From positions 1-35,128 of the forward strand of contig DASZJD010000028.1 in the NCBI GenBank assembly GCA_035948415.1: a stretch of DNA of 35,128 bases, written 5' to 3'. Made by a program: the position numbers and the translations under genes. The notes below the pieces were generated by a model that saw nothing but the letters and a program-made list of their open reading frames with translations, did not search any database and was not told the origin of the DNA. This DNA comes from Acidimicrobiia bacterium (lineage in GTDB: Bacteria > Actinomycetota > Acidimicrobiia > IMCC26256 > PALSA-555). Shown piece by piece: positions 4,638 through 15,050 of the stretch. Numbering within the stretch: position 1 is the first letter of the stretch; each line of letters opens with the position of its first letter.

Positions 4638-5441
4638 GTGAGCGACGACGACACCACGGGCCTCCTCGACGGCCGGGTAGGGATCGTGTCGGGTGTCGGC
4701 CCCGGGCTCGGCCGCGCCATCGCGCTCGCGCTGGCGCGCGCCGGCGCCGACGTCGGCCTCGGTGCCCGCCGCCCCGACGCGCTCGCCGCCGTCGCCGCCG
4801 AGGTCGAGGCGCTGGGCCGACGGGCCTGCGCCGTGCCGACCGACGTCACCGACGCCGGCCAGTGCCGCCGGCTCGCCGACACCGTGGCCGCCGACCTCGG
4901 CCGGGTGGACGTCCTCGTCAACAACGCGTTCACCGAGGAGGACTGGCGGGAGCCCTTCGACGGCCTCGACCCCCAGCGGTGGCGGGCGCCGATGGCCGTC
5001 AACTGCTTCGGCTCCCTCACGCTCACCCAGGCCACCCTCCGGCACCTGCGCGCCGCCGGCGGCGGGTCGGTGGTCATGATCACGACCCTGTCGATCAAGA
5101 ACCCGATCCCGCTCCTCGCTGGCTACGCGGCGTCGAAGCGAGCCCTCACCACCGCCGCCCACGTCCTGGCCCAGGAGCTGGGACCGGACCGGATCCGCGT
5201 CAACTGCGTCGCCCCGGGCCACATCCGGGGCCCGGTCCTCGACGAGTACTTCACCTGGATCGCGGCGCGGCGGGGCGTCGAGCCGGCCGACGTCGAGGCC
5301 GAGGTCGTGGCGCTGCACGCGCTCCCCACGATCCCGACGCCGACCGAGATCGCGGGTGCGGTCGTGTTCCTGGCCAGCGACCTCTCGCGCGCGATCACGG
5401 GCCAGACGCTGAACGTCAACTGTGGCCGGACCCTGGACTGA
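4638..5441 (+). CDS. Short-chain dehydrogenase/reductase (SDR), paralogue A
   Basis: A 267-residue classical SDR, predicted NAD(P)-dependent alcohol/ketone oxidoreductase. The Rossmann motif is SGVGPGLGRA (Ser replaces the usual Thr), followed by DVTDAGQC, NNAF, and catalytic YAASK (Tyr163, Lys167). The GTG at 4638 is preceded by GGGGG about 6 bases upstream and gives a short leader (MSDDDTTGLLDGRV) before the fold. It is the first gene of a plus-strand operon starting just downstream of the KstR-like box. It closely resembles the next gene (shared GVGPGLGR and DVTD.xQC blocks), suggesting tandem duplication. Substrate is inferred to be a hydroxyacyl-CoA or hydroxysteroid. Confidence 0.88.
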   Translation: MSDDDTTGLLDGRVGIVSGVGPGLGRAIALALARAGADVGLGARRPDALAAVAAEVEALGRRACAVPTDVTDAGQCRRLADTVAADLGRVDVLVNNAFTEEDWREPFDGLDPQRWRAPMAVNCFGSLTLTQATLRHLRAAGGGSVVMITTLSIKNPIPLLAGYAASKRALTTAAHVLAQELGPDRIRVNCVAPGHIRGPVLDEYFTWIAARRGVEPADVEAEVVALHALPTIPTPTEIAGAVVFLASDLSRAITGQTLNVNCGRTLD

Positions 5442-5454
5442 AAGGGGTCGGCTC

Positions 5455-6231
5455 GTGCTGCTGGGCGACAAGGTGGCGATCATCTCGGGCGTCGGGCCCG
5501 GCCTCGGCCGGCAGCTGGCGCTCGCCTACGCCCGGCACGGCGCCAGCCTGCTCCTCGGCGCCCGTCGCGAGGCCCGACTCGCCGCGGTGCAGGCCGAGGT
5601 GGCCGCGCTCGGCGGACGCGCCGTCGCGGTGCCGACCGACGTCACCGACCCCCGCCAGTGCGAGCGGCTGGCGCAGACGGCGATCGACGAGTACGGCCAC
5701 CTCGACGTCCTCGTGAACAACGCCGCCGCCGCGAGCCGGGCCCAGCGGTTCGAGGACGCCGACCTCGACGACTGGCGGCAGGCCGCCGAGGTCACGCTCT
5801 TCGGCAACCTGCAGATGACGCACGCCGCCATCCCCGCCCTGCGCGCTCGGGGCGGCGGGTCGATCCTGTTCGTGAACTCGATGATCGTCCGCGCCCCGAG
5901 GCCCCTCGAGGGCGCCTACGCCACCGCCAAGGCCGCGCTGCTCACGGCGGCGCAGGCCCTGGCGCGCGAGCTGGGCCCCGACCGCATCCGCGTGAACACG
6001 ATCGTGCCCGGGTGGCTCTGGGGGCCGACGGTCGAGCACCACCTCGAGGCGGTGGCGTCCCGGACCGGCAGCACCGTGCAGGAGCAGTACGACGAGCTCG
6101 CCTCGCACATCCCGCTCGGCCTCCCGACCGACGCCGACTGCGCCGACGCCGCCGTGTTCTTCGCCTCCGACCTGTCGTCGGTGGTCACCGGCCAGGCCCT
6201 CGACGTCAACGGCGGCGAGGTGTGCCACTGA
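5455..6231 (+). CDS. Short-chain dehydrogenase/reductase (SDR), paralogue B
   Basis: A 258-residue classical SDR with SGVGPGLGRQ in the cofactor-binding turn, NNAA after strand 4, and catalytic YATAK (Tyr155, Lys159). The GTG at 5455 has a strong ribosome binding site AAAGGGG at 5441-5447, so it is preferred over an in-frame GTG at 5422 that lies inside the previous gene. It follows paralogue A by 13 bp and is probably co-transcribed with it. The two may form a heteromer or act on successive or epimeric substrates; that is inference. Confidence 0.88.
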   Translation: MLLGDKVAIISGVGPGLGRQLALAYARHGASLLLGARREARLAAVQAEVAALGGRAVAVPTDVTDPRQCERLAQTAIDEYGHLDVLVNNAAAASRAQRFEDADLDDWRQAAEVTLFGNLQMTHAAIPALRARGGGSILFVNSMIVRAPRPLEGAYATAKAALLTAAQALARELGPDRIRVNTIVPGWLWGPTVEHHLEAVASRTGSTVQEQYDELASHIPLGLPTDADCADAAVFFASDLSSVVTGQALDVNGGEVCH

Positions 6232-6285: not shown

Positions 6286-6777
6286 ATGTCCCGACTCGAG
6301 CTGCCCCCCGGCGACCAGCCAGAGATCGTGCGGGTCTGGGACCTGCGACCCGAGATGGGCGCGGCGGTGCAGGGCCTGTCGTACGCCGTGTACTCGAAGA
6401 GCCAGCTGCCGGCCCGCGTCCGCGAGGCGGCCCGGATGCGGATCGCCGAGCTCAACGACTGCGCCGTGTGCCGCGGCTGGCGCATCCCCGAGCTCGCCGA
6501 GCAGGGCGTCACCGAGGATCTCTACGCCCACGTCTCCGACCCGGAGTCCGGCGACTACTCCGCGCCGGAGCGCCTCGCCATCGAGTACGCCGAGCGGTTC
6601 GCGCTCGACCACCGCTCGATCGACGACGCCTTCTTCGCCCGGCTCCGCGAGCACTTCACCGACCCCGAGATCCTCGACCTCACCATCTGCGTCGGGAACT
6701 GGGTCGCCTTCGGGCGCCTCACGATGGTGCTCGACCTCGACGAAGCCTGCGCGGTGCGGCCACGCGTCTCGGTGTGA
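6286..6777 (+). CDS. Carboxymuconolactone decarboxylase (CMD/AhpD-like) protein, CxxC form
   Basis: A 163-residue protein of the all-helical CMD/AhpD-like family. The redox motif is CAVC (Cys59, Cys62) in RIAELNDCAVCRGW, the same place as the AhpD thioredoxin-like cysteines, so a thiol-disulfide or peroxidase-type role is plausible; true decarboxylase activity is not implied. An AAGGAGG ribosome binding site (6274-6280) lies 5 bases before the ATG at 6286; a GTG at 6283 is too close to it. This is the first of three CMD paralogues in the operon, and the only one with both cysteines. Its stop codon overlaps the P450 start (GTGA). Confidence 0.85.
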   Translation: MSRLELPPGDQPEIVRVWDLRPEMGAAVQGLSYAVYSKSQLPARVREAARMRIAELNDCAVCRGWRIPELAEQGVTEDLYAHVSDPESGDYSAPERLAIEYAERFALDHRSIDDAFFARLREHFTDPEILDLTICVGNWVAFGRLTMVLDLDEACAVRPRVSV

Positions 6778-7997
6778 CGACCGCGACGGTCGACCTCTTC
6801 GACCTCGACCGGTTCGCCGACGGCCCGCCGCACGAGCTCTTCCGGAGGCTGCGCGCCGAGCAGCCGGTCTGCTTCCTCCCCGAGCCGGCCGGCCCGGGCT
6901 ACTGGGGCGTGTTCGGCTACGACGACGTCGTCACGGTCTCGCGGCACCCGGACCGATTCGGCTCGCACCCGAACACGATGATCCGCGACCCCGCCGGCGG
7001 CGACGCCGGCGCGGGCGCGCTGATGCTGAACCAGGACCCGCCGCGCCACACCCAGCTGCGCAAGCTCGTGAACCGGGGGTTCACGCCGCGGCAGGTCGCC
7101 ACGCTCACGCCGCGCGTCCAAGCCATCGTCGACCGCCTCCTCGACGGCGTCGCCGCCCGGGGCCGCTTCGACCTGGTCGCCGACGTCGCCGTCGAGCTGC
7201 CCCTCCAGGTCATCGCCGAGCTCGTCGGCGTGCCCGAGGAAGACCGGCACCGCGTGTTCGCCTGGACCGAGCGGATGATGAGCCTCGACGACCCCGAGCT
7301 CGGCGGCACCGAGGCGGACGCGCACGAGGCGATCCAGGCGATGTTCGCCTACGCCGACCGGTTGGCCGCCGAGCGCGCCGGCGGCGGCGGCAGCGACCTG
7401 CTCAGCGTGCTCCTCGCCGCCGAGGTAGAGGGGGAGCGGCTCGGGCCGCACGACGTCGACCTCTTCTTCCTGCTCCTCATGAACGCCGGGAGCGAGACGA
7501 CCCGGAACCTGATCACGGGCGGGACGCTGGCCCTGTTCGAGCACCCGTCCGAGCGCGCCCGGCTGCAGCGCGACCTCGACCTGGTGCCGAGCGCGGTGGA
7601 GGAGATGCTGCGCTTCGTGACCCCGGTGCTGCACTTCCGGCGAACCGCCCGGGAGGACACCGAGCTCGGCGGCCAGCACGTCCGGGCCGGCGACAAGGTC
7701 GTGGTGTGGTACGCGTCGGCCAACCGGGACGAGGCCCAGTTCCCGAACGCCGACCGCTTCGACATCATGCGGGCGCCGAACGACCACGTCGCCTTCGGCG
7801 CCGGCGGCCCCCACTTCTGCCTCGGCGCGGGCCTGGCCCGCCTCGAGGCCCGGCTGCTCTTCCAGGGCCTGCTCCGCCGATTCCCGGACCTGTGTCCCGA
7901 CGGCCCGGTGCGCCGGCTGCGGTCGAACTTCATCAACGGCATCAAGTCCTTGCCGGTGGCGGTCACCGCCGCGCCCGGCCCCGCCGACGCGTCCTAG
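6774..7997 (+). CDS. Cytochrome P450 (CYP125/CYP142/CYP124-like)
   Basis: A 407-residue soluble bacterial P450. Visible landmarks are the I-helix AGSETT (~238-243), the K-helix ExxR as EEMLR (~276-280), VLHFRRTA after it, and the heme loop FGAGGPHFCLG with ligand Cys349. The phrases NAGSETTRN, FRRTA and HVAFGAGGPHFCLGA are characteristic of the CYP125/142 group, which oxidises the terminal methyl of cholesterol side chains to C26/C27 alcohols and acids. GTG start at 6774 overlaps the CMD stop by four bases (GTGA), indicating translational coupling. The ferredoxin and reductase partners are not in the window. The exact subfamily would need a tree. Confidence 0.92.
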   Translation: MTTATVDLFDLDRFADGPPHELFRRLRAEQPVCFLPEPAGPGYWGVFGYDDVVTVSRHPDRFGSHPNTMIRDPAGGDAGAGALMLNQDPPRHTQLRKLVNRGFTPRQVATLTPRVQAIVDRLLDGVAARGRFDLVADVAVELPLQVIAELVGVPEEDRHRVFAWTERMMSLDDPELGGTEADAHEAIQAMFAYADRLAAERAGGGGSDLLSVLLAAEVEGERLGPHDVDLFFLLLMNAGSETTRNLITGGTLALFEHPSERARLQRDLDLVPSAVEEMLRFVTPVLHFRRTAREDTELGGQHVRAGDKVVVWYASANRDEAQFPNADRFDIMRAPNDHVAFGAGGPHFCLGAGLARLEARLLFQGLLRRFPDLCPDGPVRRLRSNFINGIKSLPVAVTAAPGPADAS

Positions 7998-8012
7998 GGA
8001 GGGGCGGCGCCG

Positions 8013-8759
8013 ATGAGCGCGCTCACGGGCCGCGTCGCGGTGGTCACCGGCGCCGAGCAGCCGCTCGGCCGCGGCCTCGCCCTCGCGCTCGCCGACGCCG
8101 GCGCGTCCGTGGCGCTGGTCGGCGACGCCGCCACCCTGGCCCCGCTGACCGCCGACCTCGAGGCCCGCGGGAGCCGCGCCGTCGCCATCGACGCCGACCT
8201 CGAGCGTCGGGACGAGCTCGAGGACGCGTTCGCCACCGCCGCCGACGAGGTCGGCGGTCCCGTCGACGTCCTCGTGCACGCCGCGATGGACCCCGCCGCG
8301 TACCAGCGGCGGCCGTTCGAGACCGTCGACGACGAGGGCTGGCACCGGGTCTGGGAGGGCACGATGCGCGCCGCGCTGGCGGTGCTCCAAGCCGCGTACG
8401 GGCAGATGCGGGGTCGGGGCGGACGGATCGTCTTCGTGACGCCGACGGTGTCGATGTCGGGCGCGGCCGGTCTCGTGCCGTACGCGACCGCGCTCGAGGG
8501 GCAGCGGCTCCTCGCCAAGGCCGCGGCCCGCCAGTGGGGCCCGGACGGGATCACCGTCAACTGCGTGGCGCCGGCGCCGGAGCAGGTGCCGATCGACGTC
8601 GAGAGCCTCGAGGTCTCGCTCGCCGCTCCCGCCCTCGGCGGCCCCGGTGACGTCGAGGCCGACGTCGGCCCGGTCGTGGCCTTCCTCGCCAGCGACGCCG
8701 CCCACTTCGTGACCGGCGCCACCGTCGGCGCGGACGGCGGCGTGTGGATGGCGCCGTGA
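8013..8759 (+). CDS. SDR-fold protein lacking the catalytic lysine
   Basis: A 248-residue SDR-fold protein with a TGAEQPLGRG cofactor turn and a C-terminal VTGATVGADGG end typical of the family. The active site is degenerate: the YxxxK motif reads YATAL (Tyr157, Leu161 instead of Lys), and the usual NNAG is HAAM. It is therefore probably catalytically impaired on its own. GGGAGGGG ends about 8 bases before the ATG at 8013. It overlaps the next SDR gene by four bases (GTGA), and that protein has an intact active site, so a heteromeric complex with one structural and one catalytic subunit is a reasonable inference. Confidence 0.82.
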   Translation: MSALTGRVAVVTGAEQPLGRGLALALADAGASVALVGDAATLAPLTADLEARGSRAVAIDADLERRDELEDAFATAADEVGGPVDVLVHAAMDPAAYQRRPFETVDDEGWHRVWEGTMRAALAVLQAAYGQMRGRGGRIVFVTPTVSMSGAAGLVPYATALEGQRLLAKAAARQWGPDGITVNCVAPAPEQVPIDVESLEVSLAAPALGGPGDVEADVGPVVAFLASDAAHFVTGATVGADGGVWMAP

Positions 8760-9529
8760 GCGTCGACGGCCCGCTCGCGGGGCGCACCGCGGTCGTGACC
8801 GGCGCCGGCCAGGGCGTCGGGCTCGGCATCGCCCACGCCCTCGCCCACCGGGGCGCTCGGGTCGTGCTCGCCGCCCGCCGGGCCGAGACCGGCGAGCCCG
8901 CCGCGGCCGAGATCCGCGCCCGTGGCGGCGACGCCACCTGCGTCGTCACCGACGTGACCCGACGGGAGGACATGGAGCGGTGCGTCGCGCTCACGGTCGC
9001 CGCCACGGGGAGCCTCGAGATCATGGTGCACAACGCGTTTCAAGGCGGGCGGGCGCACCGGCTCGAGGAGGTCGACGACGCCCTCTGGACCACGAACTCC
9101 CGCACCGCGGTGTGGGGCTCCTACTACGCGGCCCGCTTCGCCTCGCCGCACCTGCGCGCCGCCGGGCCGCGAGGCCGACTCGTCCTCGTGACGTCGCCGG
9201 CGGGCGTCGAGGGGAGCGCGCTCCGCCCCGTGTACTCGCCGGTGAAGGCGGCCCAGCGGGCGATGGCCAAGAGCCTGGCCCGGGAGTGGGGCGGCCACGG
9301 GATCACGGTCAACTGTCTGGCTCCGGTCGCCGACACGCCCGCGCTCGCCGGCGCGTTCGCGGCGAGCCCCGCGCTGCGTGCGCGCGTCGAGGCCCGCACC
9401 GCCCTCGGCCGCATCGGCGACGCCGAGCACGACGTCGGCGTCGTCGCTGCCTTCCTCGCCAGCGACGACGGCGGCTACATCACCGGGCAGACCATCGTCT
9501 GCGACGGCGGCAGCTTCATGGGGCTGTGA
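8756..9529 (+). CDS. Short-chain dehydrogenase/reductase, catalytically intact
   Basis: A 257-residue classical SDR with TGAGQGVGLG for cofactor binding, VHNAF in place of NNAG, Ser in TSPAG, and YSPVK (Tyr160, Lys164) as the active site. The GTG at 8756 forms a GTGA overlap with the upstream degenerate SDR; an in-frame ATG at 8744 lies inside that gene and is less likely. Its TGA shares one base with the ATG of the next CMD gene. Predicted hydroxyacyl-CoA or hydroxysteroid dehydrogenase, possibly paired with the upstream SDR. Confidence 0.87.
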   Translation: MSVDGPLAGRTAVVTGAGQGVGLGIAHALAHRGARVVLAARRAETGEPAAAEIRARGGDATCVVTDVTRREDMERCVALTVAATGSLEIMVHNAFQGGRAHRLEEVDDALWTTNSRTAVWGSYYAARFASPHLRAAGPRGRLVLVTSPAGVEGSALRPVYSPVKAAQRAMAKSLAREWGGHGITVNCLAPVADTPALAGAFAASPALRARVEARTALGRIGDAEHDVGVVAAFLASDDGGYITGQTIVCDGGSFMGL

Positions 9530-10044
9530 TGAGCTGGCTCCCCGACGCCGCCGAGGGCGACACGCCGCTGGAGCGCGTCTTCGGGCTGCGCCCCGACCTC
9601 TACGAGCCCTTCCGGGCCTTCTACGACGTCTTCTGGACCGAGGGCCTGCTCGACCCGGTCGTGCTCGAGCTGTGCCGCCTGCGCGTCGCGCAGCTGCTCG
9701 GCTGCGAGAGCGAGCAGCGCCTGCGCTACCGGCCGGCGCGGGACGCCGGGCTCGCCGAGGACCAGGTCGCCCAGCTCCCCGGGTGGCCCCAGGGTCCCGC
9801 GTTCACCGACGCGCAGCGGGCGGCGCTCGCCGTCGCCGAGCAGTTCGTGCTCGACCCGCACCGGATCGACGACGAGCGACGCGACGCCGTGATCGACCAC
9901 TTCGGCCTGCCCGGGCTCGTCGCGCTCTGCGAGGTCCTCGCCCTCTTCGACGGGTTCTGCCGCTTCCGCACCATCCTCGGCGTCGCCGCGCCCCCCACGG
10001 TGACCGTCGTCCCGGCGCCGGCGCCCGGGACGTCCCTCGCCTGA
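9529..10044 (+). CDS. CMD/AhpD-like protein with CxxE in place of CxxC
   Basis: A 171-residue CMD/AhpD-like protein. The region aligning with the CxxC of the first paralogue reads LGCESEQRLRY, so Cys59 is kept while the second redox residue is Glu62. The ATG at 9529 overlaps the preceding stop by one base (TGATG). With a single Cys it cannot form the intramolecular disulfide expected of AhpD; it could be a partner subunit of the neighbouring Cys- and Sec-containing paralogues, or use a different chemistry (the glutamate might act as a base). CMD proteins form oligomers, so mixed assemblies are possible (inference). Confidence 0.82.
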   Translation: MSWLPDAAEGDTPLERVFGLRPDLYEPFRAFYDVFWTEGLLDPVVLELCRLRVAQLLGCESEQRLRYRPARDAGLAEDQVAQLPGWPQGPAFTDAQRAALAVAEQFVLDPHRIDDERRDAVIDHFGLPGLVALCEVLALFDGFCRFRTILGVAAPPTVTVVPAPAPGTSLA

Positions 10045-10057
10045 ACCGGAGGAGCCC

Positions 10058-10561
10058 ATGACCGGTCCCCGACACCCGATCCGCGGTGACGCGCTCGGCA
10101 CCCAGCCCGAGGCGATCGCCGCCTTCTGGCGCCTGTACGGGCAGCTGTGGAGTCACGGCACCGTCGAGCACGCCGTGAAGGAGATCGCCCGGATCCGCAA
10201 CGCCCGGATCACCGACTGCGGGTACTGACGCAACGTCCGCTTCGCGGTCGCGAGGCAGCAGGGCCTGACCGAGGCGCGCGTCGCGCTCGTCGACGAGGGG
10301 TTCGAGGCCAGCGACCTGTCGCCCCGCGAGAAGGCGGTGGTCCGGTACGTCGACACGTTCCTCACCGACCCCAGCGGCCTGACCGAGGGGCAGCGCCAGG
10401 AGCTCCTCGAGCACTTCACGGCCGGGCAGCTCGTCGAGCTGACGGCCGCCGCGGCGCTGTTCGTCGGCTTCTCGAAGATCGCGATCGCCCTCGGGCCGCC
10501 CCCCGACATGCCGACCCAGGTCATCCCGACGCCCGACGTGCCCGACGAGGGCGGGTCGTAG
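10058..10561 (+). CDS. CMD/AhpD-like selenoprotein, CxxU (UGA read as selenocysteine)
   Basis: Reading through the in-frame TGA at 10226-10228 gives a 167-residue CMD/AhpD-like protein of normal family length. The residues around it are RITDCGY-U-RNVRF, so UGA (residue 57) falls exactly on the second cysteine of the family CxxC, with Cys54 before it. The frame continues with every one of the next fifty codons ending in G or C, as expected for real coding sequence here. A hairpin just after the UGA has the layout of a bacterial SECIS (listed separately). The ATG at 10058 has GGAGGAG at 10048-10054. It ends the plus-strand operon. Likely a thiol/selenol oxidoreductase or peroxidase in the cytoplasm. 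The alternative is a TGC-to-TGA nonsense mutation, which the hairpin and the second selenoprotein in this window argue against. Confidence 0.87.
10226..10254 (+). promoter_or_regulatory. UGA-Sec codon and SECIS-like hairpin of the CMD selenoprotein
   Basis: After TGA (10226-10228) a hairpin forms at 10240-10254: C40-G54, T41-A53, a single bulged T42, then C43-G52, G44-C51 and C45-G50, closing a four-base loop GGTC at 10246-10249. The SECIS upper stem of E. coli fdhF has the same design: three pairs below a GGUC loop, then one bulged U followed by a U-A pair. The loop begins 18 nt after the UGA, against 19 nt in fdhF. SelB recognises the loop GU and the bulged U. Confidence 0.82.
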
Positions 10562-14132: not shown

Positions 14133-15050
14133 TCACGAGGCCGACGGCTCGGCGCCGACGCCCTCGAGGTCCTGCAGCGACGGCGCGAAGTAGTAGGAGC
14201 CGCTCACCGGGTGGGAGAAGTCGGTTAGGCGGTCGCGGACCCCGTCGGGGCCGGTGCCGAACATCCGGGCGAGCATCTTGTCGAACCGACTGGGGTCGGC
14301 GCTGAACGCGACGAAGAACAGCCCGTGCTCGTGCACGGTCCCGTAGGGGACGCTCCGCCGGTAGATGTGGAGCTCCTCGCCGTCCTCCTCGATGCTGACG
14401 CGTGCGATGTGCGCGGTCGGCGGCTTCGCCGCCTCGTCGAGCTCGACGCTGTCGGGCTTCGTGCGTCCGAAGACCCGCTCCTGGTCGACCAGCGAGAGCC
14501 GGTCGAAGGCCTCGAGGTCGTGGACCCAGCGCATCGCCATCGCGTACGAGCCGCCGGCGCCCGGCGCGTCGTCGGGCACGACGGCGACGGACGGAGCCTC
14601 GTAGGTCGGCGGGTTCTCGGTGCCGTCGATGAACCCCGTGAGGTCGCGGCTGTCCCGGTAGACGAAGCCCGGCTGCTCCGCCGCCAGCGCCGCCGCCGGC
14701 CCCATGGCGCTGGTCACGGCCCGAGCGGCGTCGAGGGCGAGGTCCGGTCCGGTGCCGTGCACCCACACCCAGACGTCGTGCTGCGTCGCCGGGGCCCGCG
14801 GCGGCCCCGGTCCTCCGACCGGCTGGAAGGCGCCCCAGCCGCGGTCGGCGCCGCCGGGGGCGAGGCGGGCCCAGAGCGCGGGCCCGAACGCGATGATCAG
14901 GTTGAAGCCGCCGACGGTCACCGACGGCTCCCGGAGCGCCTGGACCGCGGCGCGCACGTCCCGGTCGGCGGCGCCGTCGACCAGGTCGAACTCGAGGTGG
15001 TAGTGCGCCCGGGTGCCCTGGGCGAAGATGCCCGGTTGCGCGTCCGCCAT
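14133..15050 (-). CDS. DyP-type heme peroxidase (YfeX-like, class B)
   Basis: A 305-residue dye-decolorizing peroxidase: a heme enzyme that uses hydrogen peroxide to oxidise diverse substrates. The family motif GFIDGTENP carries the distal Asp142; His214 in TAHIARVSI fits the proximal heme ligand, and YRRSVPYGT holds the conserved distal Arg. The protein starts MADAQPGIFAQGTRAH without a signal peptide or twin-arginine motif, so it is cytoplasmic, and its C-terminal tail does not resemble an encapsulin-targeting peptide. GGAGGG precedes the ATG by 7 bases. It lies 83 bp after the APH-like gene and may be the last gene of the racemase unit. Confidence 0.9.
   Translation of the reverse strand: MADAQPGIFAQGTRAHYHLEFDLVDGAADRDVRAAVQALREPSVTVGGFNLIIAFGPALWARLAPGGADRGWGAFQPVGGPGPPRAPATQHDVWVWVHGTGPDLALDAARAVTSAMGPAAALAAEQPGFVYRDSRDLTGFIDGTENPPTYEAPSVAVVPDDAPGAGGSYAMAMRWVHDLEAFDRLSLVDQERVFGRTKPDSVELDEAAKPPTAHIARVSIEEDGEELHIYRRSVPYGTVHEHGLFFVAFSADPSRFDKMLARMFGTGPDGVRDRLTDFSHPVSGSYYFAPSLQDLEGVGAEPSAS

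Follow-up and report, generated by a model that had tools for sequence, protein, structure and literature searches.

The stretch of DNA analysed here (35,128 nt from an Acidimicrobiia bacterium; hereafter, the window) raises the question of why one run of genes should carry three proteins of the CMD/AhpD fold that differ at a single aligned motif position. The run comprises eight genes on the + strand, SDR1-SDR2-CMD1-P450-SDR3-SDR4-CMD2-CMD3 (Table 1), most of which overlap their neighbours or are separated from them by short gaps: the stop codon of CMD1 overlaps the beginning of the P450 gene, SDR3 and SDR4 overlap by 4 bases and SDR4 and CMD2 by 1 base, and 13 bases lie between CMD2 and CMD3. 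This spacing and the common strand suggest that the eight genes form one operon, in agreement with the original prediction that the three CMD genes reside in a single operon. The operon is flanked by genes for acyl-CoA ligases, an enoyl-CoA hydratase, a thiolase and a Dyp-type peroxidase, and a catabolic setting is therefore likely. The best PDB sequence match of the P450 was CYP125MRCA (E = 1e-130), and an orthologue of SDR1 occurred at the equivalent place in three related loci (L054, L056 and L063).

Table 1. Features of the gene run and of the CMD3 recoding site, in window coordinates
Feature	Description	Position	Strand	Support
SDR1	short-chain dehydrogenase, first gene of the inferred operon	4653..5441	+	Pfam PF13561, E 3e-49
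SDR2	short-chain dehydrogenase	5464..6231	+	Pfam PF13561, E 2e-51; equivalent place in relatives
CMD1	CxxC AhpD/CMD-fold protein (C59, C62, R66)	6286..6777	+	PF02627, barely above cut-off
P450	cytochrome P450, CYP125/CYP124-like	6774..7997	+	Pfam PF00067
SDR3		8013..8759	+	Pfam; equivalent place in relatives
SDR4		8756..9529	+	Pfam; equivalent place in relatives
CMD2	degenerate CMD-fold partner	9529..10044	+	Pfam PF02627, E 2e-13
CMD3	Sec-containing CMD-fold protein (E42, C54, U57, R61)	10058..10561	+	PF02627, E 7e-8
UGA, codon 57 of CMD3	read as selenocysteine	10226..10228	+	translation; Cys in homologues at this position
Putative bacterial SECIS hairpin	GCUUCGC-GGUC-GCGAGGC, 13 bases downstream of the first UGA base	10239..10256	+	

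All three CMD proteins passed the curated PF02627 cut-off of 23 bits (CMD1, 23.2; CMD2, 50.5; CMD3, 32.8), and CMD1 was 29% identical to CMD2 and 29% identical to CMD3. Their motifs aligned as C59-A-V-C62, C59-E-S-E62 and C54-G-Y-U57, respectively, which confirmed the predicted C59/C62, C59/E62 and C54/U57 positions; all three also share an arginine four residues past the second motif position, where solved AhpD relatives have histidine. For these proteins the Pfam search returned no match besides CMD, and CMD3 fell below the curated cut-offs of TIGR01926 (42.4 against 81.8 bits), NF053654 (35.0/310), NF041238 (27.1/175) and NF041047 (17.7/110); when four NCBIfam names or numbers were checked against the literature, one of the four was found, in the available part of PMC13188914. 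In the original prediction, the three motifs were taken as a graded set of thiol, acid and selenol versions, acting as subunits of a mixed oligomer or in sequential steps.

Probable selenocysteine in CMD3

The genome from which the window derives contains 10 CMD matches, 3 of them with an in-frame TGA, and in all 3 the TGA occupies the second CxxC position (CGYU, CHYU and CHYU), which is more than chance. The same genome carries selA (470 bits), selB (287 bits, together with its neighbours in the frame) and tRNA-Sec (anticodon listed as tca), all on one contig. A genome-wide scan for CMD3 recovered 49 loci, which by their record names came from Actinomycetota, Pseudomonadota, Myxococcota, Chloroflexota and Binatota among others, most of the records being MAG drafts. 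Together with L056 and the window these loci made up a set of 51 rows (L054, L055, L057 and L058 duplicate L065, L066, L113 and L111, and were excluded from the 51-row counts). Glu42, Cys54 and Arg61 were each present in 51/51 rows, and the second motif position was Sec in 30 rows and Cys in 21, with no other residue.

A hairpin with a stem of 7 bp and a loop of four bases, placed 13 bases downstream of the first UGA base, was fully paired in 24 of the 30 Sec loci and formed 4 to 6 pairs in the remainder, as compared with 2 to 5 pairs, and in no case a full stem, in the 21 Cys loci (p = 3.6e-10, Mann-Whitney, relatedness of loci ignored). The second base of the loop was G in 30/30 Sec loci, and one pair of the stem was C-G in 26 Sec loci and T-A in two, a change on both sides. 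The effect on folding energy was modest (mean z of -1.10 for Sec loci and 0.07 for Cys loci), and the window's own hairpin was not unusually stable (z = -0.37; z = 0.25 in a test of a 69-base stretch). When all 49 genomes were counted, tRNA-Sec was detected in 23/28 with a Sec CMD3 and in 10/21 with a Cys CMD3 (p = 0.012, Fisher, one-sided); the search, with its stricter filters and mostly draft records, returned none for 5 of the 28.

Because the genome holds selA, selB and tRNA-Sec, and because the UGA-containing relatives carry a downstream hairpin that has no counterpart in the Cys versions, the CMD3 UGA very probably encodes selenocysteine. The unexceptional folding energy of the window's hairpin, taken alone, would fit a plain stop codon or a sequencing error in a broken gene; however, UGA recurs at the equivalent codon in those 30 rows across phyla, with Cys in all others, the protein is conserved on both sides of it, and the machinery is in the genome, which makes a broken gene scarcely credible. 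Gene prediction that treats UGA as a stop would cut CMD3 short, and could thus miss the arrangement described below.

CMD2 and CMD3 as a pair, and CMD1 apart

In all 49 loci of the scan a CMD2 match was found upstream of CMD3, and in 48 of these it was directly upstream or fused; in the remaining locus (L110) it lay ~2.6 kb away. A possible CMD3 start overlaps the CMD2 stop by four bases in 27/51 loci. The same picture emerged when 395 genomes of the class were surveyed: CMD3 was present in 20 genomes (21 matches, 17 with TGA), a listed CMD2 stood beside 15 of the 21 matches, and the other six were seen on reading to have a CMD2-like frame upstream, so that CMD2 accompanies CMD3 in 21/21. In four of the 51 loci (L056, L075, L077 and L079) no stop codon intervenes and the two are joined in the order CMD2-CMD3, giving proteins of ~330-350 residues. 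Three of these form one clade on the CMD3 tree and L056 lies elsewhere; thus, at least two fusions are likely to have occurred. Outside the window's family, representatives of the neighbour clusters included a Ni-insertion protein, a PP2C, a PASTA kinase, a methylmalonyl-CoA mutase, an ABC transporter and an amidohydrolase, among others; these clusters had no common theme, and a shared pathway for the pair was set aside.

CMD1 behaves differently. The class has many CMD1-like proteins (75/395 genomes at E 1e-30), and several relatives carry Sec as residue 62. A CYP125-like P450 adjoins CMD1 in 9 of 30 fetched loci (whose flanks extended only ~1.5 kb), all nine from the window's family, and these account for 9/9 of the family genomes that have CMD1. 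The CMD1 operon also persists without the pair: three family genomes (G008, G009 and G011) carry a Cys CMD1 and gave no match in the CMD3 search, and in three others (G002, G004 and G007) neither gene was found. In a tree of 60 rows (22 CMD3 loci chosen from the 51, their CMD2 rows scoring at least 95 bits, 8 CMD1 and 11 other CMD proteins), the CMD2 and CMD3 clades were each supported (100/94 and 97/93), and CMD1 stood apart from both, grouping with a paralogue on another contig of the same genome. Judged by these neighbourhoods and this tree, CMD1 belongs to the P450/SDR oxidation operon, separate from the pair, and the functional unit is the pair and not the trio.

The identity of the redox residue was not fixed. 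Within the window's family all four CMD1/CMD3 combinations occur: C/U in the window, C/C in G006, U/C in G005, and U/U in G010 and G003, as well as in G001, where the two genes are on separate contigs. G006 retains selA and tRNA-Sec though both of its proteins have Cys. When the CMD3 tree was computed with the Sec column and the columns encoding the hairpin left out, the Cys/Sec label required 8 changes (7-9 over bootstraps), only 4 of them forced by the starred branches alone, suggesting about eight switches between Sec and Cys at the second motif position. CMD1 and CMD3 thus switch independently within one operon, and CMD3 offers a natural experiment in which a single active site has repeatedly changed between Cys and Sec beside the same obligate partner.

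The acid version did not hold up as a conserved state either. A motif survey found that the CESE hairpin of CMD2 (residues 59-62) is not conserved: it reads NESE in L054 and CASE in L055, is partly missing in L057 and L058, and farther afield is replaced by Gly- or Ala-containing hairpins that lack Cys, or deleted. The best-kept part of CMD2 is the second half of the fold, and in a sponge-associated group the match is mainly to the C-terminal half. We therefore rejected CMD2 as a conserved acid version, its hairpin being altered or deleted across lineages.

These observations bear on the proposal that the thiol, acid and selenol versions (CMD1, CMD2 and CMD3) work as a trio, whether by forming a mixed oligomer or by acting in three successive steps. 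That one operon holds all three in 5 of the 12 genomes of the window's family, always with the P450 next to CMD1, argues against a chance insertion. Nevertheless, three family genomes hold the CMD1 operon without the pair, the pair occurs elsewhere without CMD1, the Cys and Sec identities are interchangeable, the Glu of CMD2 is not conserved, and CMD1 groups apart from the other two; we therefore consider a functional trio improbable, and the graded design does not survive. Since CMD2 and CMD3 form a fixed pair and CMD1 is part of the oxidation operon, the locus probably encodes a selenium enzyme of two parts and not a graded series of three. The mixed oligomer of the original prediction stands for CMD2 and CMD3, which are universal neighbours, were likely fused twice independently and give a confident two-domain model (see below), and falls away for CMD1.

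Predicted architecture and possible function of the pair

Among solved structures, PA0269/AhpD of Pseudomonas aeruginosa (2o4d, 2ijc and 7xw1) lies nearest in sequence to CMD1, CMD2 and CMD3 alike. According to the available part of its description (PMC3141380), PA0269 forms a ring of identical subunits with a proton relay of Glu36, Cys48, a Tyr, Cys51 and His55, the His being invariant among the proteins compared. The Glu and CxxC positions of PA0269 match those of CMD3, which keeps the Glu and the Cys/Sec pair; the counterpart of His55, however, is Arg in 51/51 rows, so that CMD3 does not carry the AhpD relay as described. As this departs from every AhpD compared in the portion of PMC3141380 available to us, AhpD chemistry may not carry over.

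We modelled the naturally fused L056 protein, rather than separate chains, with AlphaFold. The model was a compact pseudo-dimer (pLDDT 90.1, pTM 0.91), obtained from an input of 16 rows (L056 and 15 others), only four of which cover the CMD3 half; two joint alignments, one of them combining the fusions with all single-domain rows, were set aside as they placed CMD2 rows on the CMD3 half. The top whole-length solved match by VIA-align was Sestrin2 (Z = 22.8, 3.1 A, 262 residues, 10% identity), followed by single-domain AhpD-like chains, of which 7xw1 ranked highest (Z = 17.2); Foldseek E-values for the model were weak, with none at or below 0.001. Like the fused pair, human Sestrin2 combines a catalytic AhpD-like half with a non-catalytic one, but the identity over the match is only ~10% and the halves are ordered active-inactive in Sestrin2 and inactive-active here. 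The DDYDY hinge motif of the inactive Sestrin half, as given in the accessible text of PMC11429811, was absent on reading from the window's CMD2 and from the fused L056 protein. In terms of the predicted fold, then, the Sestrin2 match shows a common two-domain AhpD arrangement and not a common function.

Building on the pairing, the fusions, the Cys/Sec switching and the selenocysteine machinery that are evident in the sequences, and on the predicted two-domain fold, we infer how the separate chains may associate and what each may do. CMD2 and CMD3 would be the two subunits of one AhpD-fold heterodimer, which are fused into one chain in some lineages. CMD3 would carry the chemistry, through Glu42, the Cys54-x-x-Sec57 thiol/selenol pair and Arg61, the latter replacing the catalytic His of AhpD; Sec57 would be inserted at the UGA with the aid of the hairpin 13 bases downstream. 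The fold and the CxxU pair suggest that CMD3 is most likely a selenol/thiol redox enzyme reducing hydroperoxides or disulfides via a Sec57-Cys54 Se-S intermediate. CMD2, having lost the active-site hairpin, would be an obligate, non-catalytic subunit that is structural or shapes the substrate site. In the window's family this pair sits at the end of the SDR/P450 operon, to which CMD1 belongs as another protein of this fold, with a thiol or a selenol, distinct from the pair. We regard this division of labour, with CMD1 acting separately, as reasonably probable, if well short of certain. A dehalogenase-like function was also considered, as the debrominase Bmp8 was a weak sequence match and a structural match, and was discarded with nothing else in its favour.

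Two other roles for CMD2 were weighed against this heterodimer. CMD2 could be an enzyme in its own right, for example a cofactor-free decarboxylase or isomerase acting via Glu62, with CMD3 as its redox partner. Non-redox CMD proteins do exist, 4-carboxymuconolactone decarboxylase being one, and Glu is kept at position 62 in the L054, L055 and L056 rows of the window's family; yet the hairpin is unrecognisable or deleted in other lineages, and an active CMD2 is in our judgement quite unlikely. Alternatively, CMD2 might be a ligand-sensing pseudo-subunit that regulates CMD3, akin to the leucine-binding inactive domain of Sestrin. The full-length match to Sestrin2 fits this role, and the loss of the hairpin in some CMD2 proteins resembles a change described for the inactive Sestrin domain in the part of PMC11429811 at hand. 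The order of the halves is reversed, however, and the same source, as far as available, reports that a fused AhpD homodimer likewise superposes on Sestrin, so that the Sestrin2 match is no proof of sensing; a regulatory CMD2 is therefore doubtful. The broader version of this idea, a widespread bacterial two-part Sestrin-like redox sensor in which a ligand-binding CMD2 gates the Sec/Cys site of CMD3, is speculative and on the unlikely side. If true, such a sensor would link peroxide or thiol chemistry to the sensing of a metabolite, Cys and Sec having been exchanged repeatedly in the same partner context.

Sec in CMD/AhpD proteins is known, as CxxU proteins of the PF02627 or AhpD-like type with Cys homologues appear in the available parts of PMC1088965, PMC2398784 and the 2026 review PMC13188914; for the Sec CMD/AhpD-like selenoproteins of the Sargasso Sea and GOS data, those parts describe no obligate degenerate partner, fusion or CxxU-xxx-R variant. 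Our literature search, which operated mainly at the level of titles and abstract openings, returned no description of an obligate CMD2+CMD3 pair, mostly split and often Sec-containing. Fused AhpD proteins with an inactive N-terminal half are also known: in Corynebacterium ureicelerivorans and Comamonas aquatica, a cysteine-free N-terminal domain precedes a CxxC C-terminal domain (PMC11429811, in the part available), the same order of inactive and active halves as in CMD2-CMD3. By that partial description, CMD2/CMD3 differs in usually being two genes, often with Sec, and in having Arg in place of His. As a bacterial system that exists as two genes in most lineages and as a fusion in two of them, the pair may serve as a model for how an AhpD dimer becomes asymmetric, a step that has been proposed for the origin of Sestrins.

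Protein sequence at the CMD3 hairpin

At CMD3 residues 66-68, which are encoded by or next to the putative SECIS hairpin, loci with Sec at position 57 mostly carry K/R-Q-Q, whereas those with Cys mostly carry R-D/E-D/E, a sequence difference that reads as if the RNA hairpin were constraining the protein.

Other Sec-type CMD genes of the source genome

The genome from which the window derives encodes two further CMD proteins with a CHYU motif, at loci on contigs C3 (L003) and C92 (L007). Judged by eye, short hairpins also occur 3' of each UGA, with loops that resemble those of CMD3 and CMD1.

Gene neighbourhoods and a record title

SDR2 and CMD1 are separated by a CoA-transferase family III gene in family genome G010, in which CMD2 and CMD3 are fused, but by only a 54-base gap in the window.

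Genes near CMD loci
Gene	Position	Strand	Context
CoA-transferase family III	L056:12704-13708	-	G010, between SDR2 and CMD1
Dyp-type peroxidase	window 14136-15050	-	near the operon
selA	L110:16741-18156		Candidatus Hopanoidivorans, ~6.7 kb downstream of Sec-containing CMD3

Another locus found through the CMD3 scan, L070, comes from a record titled Klebsiella pneumoniae; this title is probably wrong, because in the CMD3 tree its sequence clusters tightly with uncultured Gammaproteobacteria.
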